A stretch of 34,062 bases of DNA, taken from NCBI GenBank assembly GCA_913053845.1, contig CAJXGD010000025.1:1-34062 (forward strand), in the 5' to 3' direction. This DNA is from an uncultured bacterium. Lineage in GTDB: Bacteria; Bipolaricaulota; Bipolaricaulia; RBG-16-55-9; DRJF01. The translations under genes were made by a program, and so were the position numbers. The notes beneath the pieces are model-generated. The model worked only from the letters and a program-made list of their open reading frames with translations. It ran no database searches and was not told the DNA's origin. This document shows, piece after piece, positions 11,543-16,479 of this stretch; within the stretch, counting starts at the first letter, position 1, and every line of letters starts with the position of its first letter.

Positions 11543-12257
11543 GCGGCTCGGCCGCCTCAAGCATCACCATGTGGCCCGCTTTTTCTATGATATGCAACTG
11601 GGCATCTGGAAGATGATCGCGCAGATATTCAGCATACTTGATCGGGGTCAGCCGATCCTCTCGCCCGCAGACTACCAGTGTAGGCGCCTTAATCTGCTCT
11701 AGCTGAGCCACCAGGTCAAAGCGATCGCAAGCTGAAAAATCCCGATAAAGTGCCGCTTGACCGTTGCGCAGCATCTGATCGCGCGCTTGGCGGCGCTCTG
11801 GCTCCCTAGCGGCGGCGCCAAAGGCTAACTTGACGATTGAATCTACCGCTGCCGGGAAATCGTCGGCGATGGCCTGGAGCAGCTCCGGCAAGACCCTCAA
11901 TCTGGCTCCCGCGCCGATCAGGATCAGCCCACCGATCAGCTCCGGATGCTCTAAGGCAACGCTCAGAGCCACCGCGCTGCCCAGCGAGTGCCCGGCCAGG
12001 ACCGTCTGATCTCCCAGATCGGCCAGCACTCCGGCCACATCGGCCACATAGCTGGTCAGGTCGTCGCCAGGACGCAACGGGCTACGACCATGGCCGTTCA
12101 GATCCAGCGCCCCAACGCTAAATTGCCCCTTGAGACCCTGAAGCTGCCCGCCCCACAGCGTGTGATCCGCCCCGGAGCCGTGCACCAAGAGCAACAGGCG
12201 CCCTCGGCCCACCTGGGTATAATAGACCGGTGAGTTCTCAACTAACACCTTTGGCAT
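11496..12257 (-). CDS. Alpha/beta hydrolase
   Basis: A 253-residue alpha/beta-hydrolase-fold protein. The oxyanion-hole HGSG is at residues 26-29, the nucleophile Ser91 in AGHSLG, an acidic residue in CGREDRLTP, and the catalytic His in EKAGHMVMLE, in the canonical order. No signal peptide is seen. Such proteins include esterases, C-C bond hydrolases and haloperoxidase-like enzymes; the substrate cannot be told. It begins 20 bases inside the end of glyS, so it is the last gene of the translation operon. Its 3' end overlaps the oppositely oriented phosphatase gene by 47 bases. Confidence 0.88.
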   Translation of the reverse strand: MPKVLVENSPVYYTQVGRGRLLLLVHGSGADHTLWGGQLQGLKGQFSVGALDLNGHGRSPLRPGDDLTSYVADVAGVLADLGDQTVLAGHSLGSAVALSVALEHPELIGGLILIGAGARLRVLPELLQAIADDFPAAVDSIVKLAFGAAAREPERRQARDQMLRNGQAALYRDFSACDRFDLVAQLEQIKAPTLVVCGREDRLTPIKYAEYLRDHLPDAQLHIIEKAGHMVMLEAAEPLNRLIASFAGERDAS

Positions 12258-14340
12258 CCTTGCGCCCCTCCGCGGCGCCGGCCCCCTCGACCACTATCCG
12301 TGAGAGATCGCCGATATTCAAAAAAAGCTCCACGATTGCCCGCAAGAATCCTAGCCGATTTTGTCGCAACTCCCGGTCGGGGGTCATCACCAAGACGTCG
12401 TCGAAGTAGCGGTCTATCGGTTGGCGCAGCCCGACCAGTTGCTCGATGACTCCGGCAAAATCCCCGCAGGCGAGCAGCGGCTTGATCTGTCCCTCAGCCT
12501 TGAGGTAGGCCCGCCAGAGCTCCCGCTCGGCCTCCTCGCGAAAGAGCCGGGGGACAAAGCCGTGCGCCGATTGATCGCGGGTGATATGACAGGCCCGCGA
12601 GAAGGCGATCACCAGCGAGCGAAAACGCTCTGCGCCGCGTATCGCTTCCAGGCTACGCGCCTTCTCCAGCACCCGCCCGAAATTTCCGTCATGGGCAGCA
12701 ATGACCGCGTCTAAAACATCATAGGCGATCCCATATTGGCGCAGTAATACTTGATAGAGCCGCTCGCCGAGATAATTTTCTACTACTGAGATCGGCCTCC
12801 GGTTGGGAATGAAATGGTATAGATTTTCCGCTCGGCGGATCAGCGCATAGCAGTCCAGCTTGAGCGACTTGGCCAGCGCGATGCGAATCACCCCTATCGC
12901 CGCGCGGCGCAGGCCAAAGGGGTCGCGCGAGCCTGAGGGTTGCTCGCCGCTGGCCAGCGAGCCGATCAGCGTGTCCAGCTTGTCGGCCAGGCTGAGCACA
13001 CTGCCCCCCTCGCTCTGGGGCAGTTCGTCTTCGGCTGTGCGGGGCAGATAATGCTCGCGGATGGCCAGGGCCACCGCATCCGGCTCGCCTTCCAACTTGG
13101 CATAGGCTCCGCCGATGATCCCCTGCAAGGTGGGGAACTCGCCCACCATGGCCGTCAAGAGGTCGGCCTTGCAGAGGAAGGCCGACCGGTCCAGCGCCTC
13201 AGGATCGCTCGTGCCGACCTGCTCGGCGATCAGTTGTGCCAGTTTGCGGATGCGCCCCACCTTGTCCCAGACCGAGCCCAGTTTCTCCTGATAGACGACC
13301 GTGCGCAGGGCACGGGCCCGCTCCACCAGTGCAGTTCTGCGATCGAGCTCGAAGAAGAATTGCGAATCGGTCAGGCGCGCTCCCACCACCCGTTCGTAGC
13401 CGGCGCGCACCGTCCCGTCTTCATCAGCTCCCCCGTCGCGGAAGCCGACGAAATAGGGTGAGGCTTGGGAGCCCAACGCGAAGGGCACGAACTTCTGGTG
13501 CTCTACCAGCGTTGTGGCCAAGACCTCGGAAGGCAAACTTAAAAAAGCATCGGAGAAGCACCCTAAGACGGGGTGGGGATGCTCCAGATTGTCAGCGATC
13601 TCTGCTATCAAGTCCGGGGAGGCCAGCGGCTGGGCCTTAATCTCGTCGGCGATCACTCGGAGGGCCGACTCGACCTGTGCCCGCCGCTCAGACGGATCGA
13701 GCACCACCCCATTGGCCTTCAATTGCTTGAAATAGTCTTGCGTGTCCTTGATCTCAATCTGGGAGGCGCCCAGCGCGCGATGGCCACAGGTCAAGCGCCC
13801 AGCGCGCAGTCGGCCATAACTGAAGCCCAGCGGCTCGTCGCCATAGAGGCAGAGCAGCCAGCGAATCGGCCGCACGAAGCGCAGGCCGGAGTCGTCCCAG
13901 CGCATCGTCTCTTTGGGCACCAGTCTTTCGATTACTCGCGGAAGCAACTCGGGGAGCAGCTCAACAGTCGGACGACCCGCCTCGCGCCTTTCCAAGAAGC
14001 AATATTCGCCTTCGGGAGTTGTCTTGACGATCAGCTCCTCCGGCTTGGCTCCCCGGCTGCGGCAGAAGCCCAATGCGGCCTGGGTGGGCTGGCCCTCGGC
14101 ATCGAAGGCGGCCCGCTTGGGCGGCCCTTTGATCTCTCGGCGCGAATCGCTCTGCTGCTGCTGCAATCCGGCCACAAAGAGCACCAGGCGCCTGAGGGTA
14201 TAATCAACGCGCAGCGCTTGATAGGCCAGGCGTTCCGCTTTGAGCTCGGCCTGGGCGGCGCTGCTCAGTTGCCTAGCTAACTCGGGCAACTGACCGGGAG
14301 GAATCTCCTCGACGCCGATCTCCAACACCAGATCTCTCAT
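12238..14340 (-). CDS. glyS: Glycyl-tRNA synthetase beta subunit
   Basis: A 700-residue beta chain of the bacterial tetrameric glycyl-tRNA synthetase. It starts MRDLVLEIGVEEIPPGQLP, the hallmark N-terminus. It contains the family block RFVRPIRWLLCLYG near residue 160 and a central HD-like region with FLCKADLLTAMVGEFPTLQG around residue 390. The C-terminal anticodon-binding-like part includes YFDDVLVMTPDRELRQNRL. Length is typical (about 690). It lies 13 bases after glyQ and overlaps the following hydrolase by 20 bases. Confidence 0.96.
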   Translation of the reverse strand: MRDLVLEIGVEEIPPGQLPELARQLSSAAQAELKAERLAYQALRVDYTLRRLVLFVAGLQQQQSDSRREIKGPPKRAAFDAEGQPTQAALGFCRSRGAKPEELIVKTTPEGEYCFLERREAGRPTVELLPELLPRVIERLVPKETMRWDDSGLRFVRPIRWLLCLYGDEPLGFSYGRLRAGRLTCGHRALGASQIEIKDTQDYFKQLKANGVVLDPSERRAQVESALRVIADEIKAQPLASPDLIAEIADNLEHPHPVLGCFSDAFLSLPSEVLATTLVEHQKFVPFALGSQASPYFVGFRDGGADEDGTVRAGYERVVGARLTDSQFFFELDRRTALVERARALRTVVYQEKLGSVWDKVGRIRKLAQLIAEQVGTSDPEALDRSAFLCKADLLTAMVGEFPTLQGIIGGAYAKLEGEPDAVALAIREHYLPRTAEDELPQSEGGSVLSLADKLDTLIGSLASGEQPSGSRDPFGLRRAAIGVIRIALAKSLKLDCYALIRRAENLYHFIPNRRPISVVENYLGERLYQVLLRQYGIAYDVLDAVIAAHDGNFGRVLEKARSLEAIRGAERFRSLVIAFSRACHITRDQSAHGFVPRLFREEAERELWRAYLKAEGQIKPLLACGDFAGVIEQLVGLRQPIDRYFDDVLVMTPDRELRQNRLGFLRAIVELFLNIGDLSRIVVEGAGAAEGRKDAKGVS

Positions 14341-14353
14341 CGCTCATCTCCCA

Positions 14354-15235
14354 TCAGTCAGGAGCGGTGTCCGGCTTATGCTGGCCCCGAGAGAGCTTCA
14401 GATAGCTCTCGGCGCAGCCGCGTGTCAGCCGTTGAATGCGCCGAATGAACCGTTCCCGCTCGGTGACATGCAGCGCCCGTCGGGCGTCCAATAAGTTGAA
14501 CAAATGGGAGCACTTGGCCGCCTGCTCGTAGGCCGGATAGGGTAGCTCAGCCTGAAGCAGTTGCCCGGCAGCCGCCTCGTGCTCTTCGAAGAGCTTGGCG
14601 ATCAGGCCCACATCGGCCGCCTCGAAGTTGTAGGCGCAAAACTGCCGCTCGCTCTCCCGTTTTAGCTCACCATAGGTATGCGCCTGGTCCCAGCGCAGCT
14701 CCCAGACGCTATTTGTCCCTTGCAGCACCATGGCGATCCGCTCCGTGCCGTAGGTAAGCTCGCAGGAGATCGGCGCCAGCTCGATGCCGCCCATCTGTTG
14801 AAAATAGGTAAATTGCGAGATCTCCAGACCATCGAGCACCACCTGCCAGCCCAAGCCGGCCGCTCCCAGGGTGGGACCCTTCCAGTCGTCATGCTCGAAG
14901 CGCACGTCATGCCGCTTTAAGTCTATGCCCAAGCTCACCAAGCTCTGCAAGTACAAATCCTGCACGTCGGGGGGCACCGGCTTGAGGATGACCTGATATT
15001 GGTAATAGGCCTGCATGCGCATCGGGTTATCGGCGTAACGTCCATCTGTGGGTCGGCGGGAGGGCTCGACATAGGCTACCCGCCAGGGGCGTGGGCCCAG
15101 CACTCCGAAGAAGGTCGCCGGATGAAAAGTTCCGGCCCCCACTTCCAGATCCAAGGGTTGCTCCAGCAGACAGCCCTGGGCACGCCAATACTCCTGTAGC
15201 GCTAAGAGCAGGTCTTGAAAGTTCATCGTGGCCAA
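14354..15235 (-). CDS. glyQ: Glycyl-tRNA synthetase alpha subunit
   Basis: A 293-residue alpha chain carrying the catalytic core. It begins MATMNFQDLLLALQEYWRAQGC and contains PRPWRVAYVEPSRRPTDGRYADNPMR, the strongly conserved class II motif region, near residues 47-73. DDWKGPTLGAAGLGWQVVLDG and ISQFTYFQQMGGIEL follow. It forms alpha2-beta2 with GlyS and charges tRNA-Gly. It follows rplT by 14 bases, so glycine charging is co-transcribed with IF3, L35 and L20; in many bacteria pheST occupies this place. Confidence 0.97.
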   Translation of the reverse strand: MATMNFQDLLLALQEYWRAQGCLLEQPLDLEVGAGTFHPATFFGVLGPRPWRVAYVEPSRRPTDGRYADNPMRMQAYYQYQVILKPVPPDVQDLYLQSLVSLGIDLKRHDVRFEHDDWKGPTLGAAGLGWQVVLDGLEISQFTYFQQMGGIELAPISCELTYGTERIAMVLQGTNSVWELRWDQAHTYGELKRESERQFCAYNFEAADVGLIAKLFEEHEAAAGQLLQAELPYPAYEQAAKCSHLFNLLDARRALHVTERERFIRRIQRLTRGCAESYLKLSRGQHKPDTAPD

Positions 15236-15632: not shown

Positions 15633-15836
15633 CTAGCTGGAGAGCAACTCCAGGAAATTCTTGCGCAATTGGCCCTCCACCCGCAAGCCCTGGCGGGCCT
15701 GGCGCTTGGGCTTGGCGCTGCGCTTATTGAGCTTATGGTGATAACCGGCTTTATTGCTGGTCATCACCCCGTGCTTATTGACTTTAAAACGCTTGGCGAT
15801 GCCTCGATGGCTCTTCTTACGACGCCGACTGGGCAT
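15633..15836 (-). CDS. rpmI: 50S ribosomal protein L35
   Basis: A 67-residue basic protein ([20 protein letters not shown], then [20 protein letters not shown]) of the L35 family. I place the start at ATG 15836 because AGGAGGT lies five bases upstream. The earlier ATG in frame adds five non-family residues. The gene begins 20 bases inside the end of infC, and its ribosome site is formed by the infC codons for EDEEV, so the two genes are coupled. Confidence 0.95.
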
Positions 15837-16401
15837 GTTGTACCTCCTCATCTTCTCGCTTGCCCTGCTTGGCAGCCTGAGCGGCCGGTCGGGCTGCCGG
15901 GACTAGCACCATCTGCAAGGAGCGCCCTCGTACCCTGGGTTCCATGTCCACTCTGGCGATCTCGGCCGTGGCCTCTTTCAGGCGCTGCAGCAGTTGGCGA
16001 CCCAGTTCCATGTGCACGATCTCCCGCCCGCGGAAGATCACGGTGATCCTCACCTTATTTTCGTCCTTGAGGAACTCGCTGATCCGCCGCAGCTTGGTCT
16101 CCAGGTCGTGCTTGTCTATCTTGGTGGTAAAGCGCATCTCCTTGAGCTTACCACCCTTTTTCTGCTTCTTTTCCCGCTTCTCGCGCCGATATCTATACTT
16201 ACCGAAATCAACTATCTTGCAGACGACCGGTTGAGCCTGAGGCGCAACCTCGACCAGGTCTTTGCCTTGGCTGTGGGCCAAGCTGATCGCCTCATCGCGG
16301 GACATAATGCCCAACTGTTCACCTTTTTCGCTGACCACACGGACAGTGTCGGCCCGGATCCGCTCGTTGCGACGCATACGACTGACAGTCTGCTGAGCTA
16401 T
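15817..16401 (-). CDS. infC: Translation initiation factor IF-3, apparently starting at AUA
   Basis: IF-3 with the N-domain signature (RNERIRADTVRVVSEKGEQLGIM) and the C-domain (KEMRFTTKIDKHDLETKLRR, VRITVIFRGREIVH). The first in-frame ATG is at 16377, but it has no ribosome site. A perfect AGGAGGT (16413-16407) lies 29 bases before that ATG and exactly five bases before an in-frame ATA at 16401, giving an N-terminus (M)AQQTVSRMRRNERIR and 194 residues. E. coli and many other infC genes start at the rare AUU, letting IF-3, which rejects such codons, repress its own synthesis; AUA would serve the same purpose here. If the ATG is used instead, the protein has 186 residues. The last codons overlap rpmI. 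Confidence 0.9.
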   Translation of the reverse strand: MAQQTVSRMRRNERIRADTVRVVSEKGEQLGIMSRDEAISLAHSQGKDLVEVAPQAQPVVCKIVDFGKYRYRREKREKKQKKGGKLKEMRFTTKIDKHDLETKLRRISEFLKDENKVRITVIFRGREIVHMELGRQLLQRLKEATAEIARVDMEPRVRGRSLQMVLVPAARPAAQAAKQGKREDEEVQHAQSAS

Positions 16402-16406
16402 GGGTG

Positions 16407-16413
16407 ACCTCCT
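16407..16413 (-). promoter_or_regulatory. Shine-Dalgarno that selects the AUA start of infC
   Basis: AGGAGGT on the minus strand, a full complement to the 16S rRNA 3' end, five bases before ATA 16401 and 29 bases before the nearest ATG of the frame. Confidence 0.75.
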
Positions 16414-16450
16414 CGTTAGGGATTAGGCGGGTTAGCCGCTATTGTGGCCT

Positions 16451-16479
16451 ACCATACCATACCTACTGCCTTCTGTCAA
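16451..16479 (-). promoter_or_regulatory. Promoter of the infC operon, -35 overlapping the obgE stop codon
   Basis: Minus strand: a perfect TTGACA (16479-16474), 17 bases, then TATGGT (16456-16451). The TGA inside TTGACA is the stop codon of obgE, so the promoter begins at the end of the upstream operon. The predicted leader is about 43 bases. Confidence 0.7.

Follow-up and report, generated by a model that had tools for sequence, protein, structure and literature searches.

A predicted AUA start codon of infC in an uncultured member of the Bipolaricaulota

Introduction

Autoregulation of IF3 through the non-AUG start codon of its gene, infC, is an accepted mechanism in Escherichia coli. An AUU start has been described for infC of E. 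coli and Bacillus subtilis (PMC1805508), and in E. coli the replacement of this codon by AUG abolishes the autocontrol (Butler et al., 1987, as cited in PMC5559785 and PMC5472188). Proteomics evidenced an ATT start in Xanthomonas (PMC5559785), an ATC start is stated for Streptomyces (PMC5472188), and in Staphylococcus aureus initiation at AUA was detected by retapamulin ribosome profiling (Ribo-Ret), the authors suggesting autoregulation as in E. coli (PMC13009471). As AUA, AUU, ATT and ATC have thus been reported for infC, this kind of start (AUH, meaning AUA, AUC or AUU) is already known, its AUA form included. No tabulation of infC start codons across bacteria was found in the accessible literature; one may exist among subscription papers.

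The sequence analyzed here (the window) is a stretch of 34,062 nucleotides from an uncultured bacterium of the Bipolaricaulota (Acetothermia; contig CAJXGD010000025.1, assembly GCA_913053845.1). On the evidence of its sequence and of that of its relatives, the infC gene of the window almost certainly starts at AUA instead of AUG. Like S. aureus infC, it would have an AUA start of IF3 behind a strong Shine-Dalgarno (SD) sequence, and autoregulation is proposed for both; in S. aureus, a member of a distant phylum, the AUA was seen by ribosome profiling, whereas the window is known from sequence alone. With E. coli the window shares a non-AUG AUN start led by an SD, but the E. coli codon is AUU and its feedback was shown by genetics, while the window has AUA, a feedback that we infer, and a putative promoter of its own after obgE. 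Streptomyces (ATC) and Xanthomonas (ATT) have the AUH start in common with the window and differ from it in the third base.

Structure of the infC locus

The infC gene occupies positions 15817–16401 of the minus strand (194 codons from the ATA start; stop codon at 15819–15817), as delimited by its ORF, its match to NCBIfam TIGR00168 and an upstream extension kept in relatives. Its product is a bacterial IF3 (180 bits, the cut-off being 60; model positions 4–169 of 170 covered). Upstream, the frame is closed by an in-frame TAA (16423–16425), from which the minus strand reads TCC CTA ACG AGG AGG TCA CCC ATA GCT CAG CAG ACT GTC AGT CGT ATG CGT CGC AAC. The SD AGGAGGT (16407–16413) is followed by the spacer CACCC (16406–16402) and, at a distance of 5 nt, by the ATA (16399–16401). 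Eight codons encoding the N-terminal extension IAQQTVSR (16378–16401), the first of them presumably read as fMet, precede the ATG at 16375–16377, which is the default choice of a gene caller. No ATG, GTG or TTG is present in the infC frame between the TAA and this ATG, the sole canonical candidate, whose SD score is 1.8 vs 6.15 for the ATA; a competing well-placed AUG, GUG or UUG is therefore absent. The first-pass annotation of this DNA, which had placed AGGAGGT five bases before an in-frame ATA and 29 before the first ATG and had seen no correctly spaced ATG, GTG or TTG, was exact in these respects.

The window contains a single copy of AGGAGGTNNNNNATA, against an expectation of 0.02. Over the whole genome, AGGAGGTN4-6ATA gave 17 matches vs 12 for the reversed pattern, and the same test with RTG in place of ATA gave 70 vs 43. 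Since the ATA motif shows no clear genome-wide excess over its reversed control, it is by itself weak evidence and was rejected as proof of a start; the case for AUA is convincing because the motif sits before infC and is conserved in relatives.

Conservation of the start site in Bipolaricaulota

One hundred Bipolaricaulota genomes were searched and infC was present in 91; the upstream regions of essentially all of these were read, corresponding to 88 distinct regions. Every one of the 88 contains an in-frame ATC, ATT or ATA (ATH) with an SD score of at least 5, a combination found in 1.6% of shuffled upstream sequence. In 86 regions the ATH codon beats every ATG, GTG and TTG on SD score (ATC in 48, ATT in 20 and ATA in 18), and in the remaining two the ATA scores the same as a GTG, which sits too near the SD. 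In 50 regions the stretch from the upstream stop to the conserved N-terminal Asn of IF3 is devoid of ATG, GTG and TTG, so that a non-canonical start is forced. The rplT and rpmI genes of the same loci, where their starts could be aligned, mostly begin with ATG. This distribution strongly supports the earlier proposal that infC of the window starts at AUA and encodes eight additional N-terminal residues, and the stops or frame breaks that would speak against these eight codons did not appear in the relatives.

Within the order to which the window belongs, 16 relatives were read, 15 of which have ATC at this site and one ATT, ATA being found in the window alone. The ATA of the window is the conserved infC start site, with a third base that appears to have drifted from the AUC of its relatives.

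Start codons of infC across phyla

A wider sample comprised 242 distinct infC genes, drawn from Bipolaricaulota, Chloroflexota, Clostridia, Pseudomonadota and various other groups. By design, the SD-based start assignment considered ATH codons only, and the search for ATG was independent of that assignment; scoring allowed G-U pairs and longer spacing, as an exact-match SD with a spacing of up to 9 nt misses the Dehalococcoidia. The best-placed ATH codon was ATC in 92 genes, ATA in 87 and ATT in 63. No ATG with an SD score of 4 or more was detected among the 242 genes, and in 137 of them a canonical start codon is unavailable. AUA is frequent in the sampled Dehalococcoidia and accounts for about a third of the loci in Chloroflexota and about a quarter in Pseudomonadota. 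When placed on an IF3 tree, the starts show at least 46 third-base switches between A, C and T (12 of them in Bipolaricaulota), a number inflated by tree error, and no well-placed ATG arises across these changes.

The first-pass annotation had suggested that AUA would be a convergent solution. This view was abandoned, since the start site is homologous: an AUA/AUC/AUU site is conserved across the sampled phyla, the nearest relatives have AUC in this position, and AUA, besides having been reported for S. aureus, is common in other phyla. A non-AUG AUH start of infC is seen in nearly every bacterium examined, and the case of the window is real but ordinary. What retains interest is the breadth of AUG avoidance. 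That any of AUA, AUC and AUU may occur, but AUG does not, speaks for selection across phyla in favor of initiation sensitive to IF3, and we lean towards the view that, in the sampled bacteria, selection holds infC to these three codons and excludes AUG while the third base otherwise drifts, the AUC-to-AUA change in the window being one near-neutral switch. If the exclusion of AUG were documented widely, few translational feedback loops in bacteria would be as conserved as that of IF3. In practical terms, gene callers confined to ATG, GTG and TTG truncate or misplace infC in most of the bacteria sampled, and the N-terminus of IF3 is here corrected in a little-studied phylum.

Some loci depart from the general pattern. 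One pseudomonadotal infC (L263, genome G232) seems to start at GTG and lacks an ATH at the site, which makes it a rare departure from the AUH rule and a candidate case of lost IF3 autocontrol. In another gene, sampled twice (L095 and L191), the assignment is ambiguous. The Dehalococcoidia loci (among L061–L140, e.g., L092, L115, and L116) show an SD placed some 10 nt ahead of a strictly conserved ATA, GGAGGTAAATAAGGACATA, a spacing longer than usual, and a second ATT codon often follows directly after the ATA.

Alternative explanations and putative regulatory role

A rival reading would place the start of infC at ATG 16377, which has the usual initiation codon in its favor and is where mechanical ORF calling puts it; the upstream SD and ATA would then be a coincidence or a remnant. 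Apart from the low SD score of this ATG, the relatives have Ile, Val, Leu or Phe at its position and still retain the SD-ATH site, which makes the methionine an internal residue. In addition, the eight codons remain in frame and diverge in a codon-like manner. In a close genus the extension reads I-A-G-P-H-S-R, with differences mostly at third bases, and among relatives the codons after ATH differ 937 times at position 3, 595 at position 1 and 402 at position 2, vs a nearly flat 1890, 1525, and 1661 in the 24 nt upstream, counts that are supportive only, as the pairs are not independent. Translation from ATG 16377 is thus considered highly improbable. Hardly more credible is an assembly or sequencing error at a true ATC or ATT. 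The window belongs to one draft genome, assembled in 91 contigs, and the ATA is unique in the order, hence a single-base error is conceivable; however, this site often carries ATA in other lineages (18 to 20 of the 88 regions in the phylum, and also in Chloroflexota), which makes a real change to ATA unremarkable, and an AUC would leave the conclusion unchanged.

The explanation that deserves more weight, though still unlikely, accepts AUA as the start and denies it a regulatory role, the codon merely setting a low, constant expression. The avoidance of AUG over the third-base changes described above, while A, C and T interchange, fits selection for codons against which IF3 discriminates, and the loss of autocontrol in E. 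coli after the AUU-to-AUG change, as cited from Butler et al. (1987), also argues for regulation. Autoregulation of the window infC by IF3 is considered likely by analogy. In the preferred reading, AUA 16401 would be positioned by the strong SD (AGGAGGU, 5-nt spacer) and read by the initiator tRNA, giving an IF3 eight residues longer than the ATG-started model. IF3 destabilizes initiation complexes that form on non-AUG codons; through the AUA, abundant free IF3 would thus keep infC translation low and a shortage of IF3 would let it rise, the behavior demonstrated for AUU in E. coli. The site itself would be the ancestral AUH site of infC, its third base now being A. As a whole, this reading (start at AUA 16401, ancestral AUH site, IF3 feedback) is held with high confidence; the sequence anatomy, the conservation and the lack of AUG are observed, and from them we infer initiation in the organism and the feedback.

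Promoter, leader, and neighboring genes

Upstream of infC lies obgE, identified by reading its translation, the end of which overlaps a sigma-70-type promoter on the minus strand (16451–16479; TTGACA-17-TATGGT with TG before the −10), the predicted own promoter of infC. In 14 of the 16 relatives of the order, TTGACA-17/18-TATCTT or TATGGT occupies the corresponding place, 54–104 nt upstream of the start. Across the order this promoter combines a perfect TTGACA with an unusual −10, TATCTT in 13 relatives and TATGGT in the window and one relative (L004), and it is absent from two others (L010 and L011). A leader RNA before infC, such as the L20 leader, was discarded: none of the Rfam families attained its gathering score in the window, and only a short distance separates the promoter from the AUA. 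With no other control suggested in the leader, the start codon itself is likely the regulatory element, as in E. coli.

The rpmI gene (L35; 15633–15836, minus strand) has its own SD AGGAGGT; the mechanical ORF begins further upstream and its start was corrected to the ATG at 15836–15834. Because this ATG and its AGGAGGT (15834–15848, minus strand) sit inside the 3′ end of infC, the two genes are likely translationally coupled. Next comes rplT (L20; 15250–15618, minus strand), with an ATG start preceded by an SD. In many bacteria the place after rplT is occupied by pheS-pheT; here, ORFs resembling glyQ and glyS on reading their translations directly follow (12238–15235, minus strand), the glyQ-like one being listed from a TTG with an ATG three codons on.
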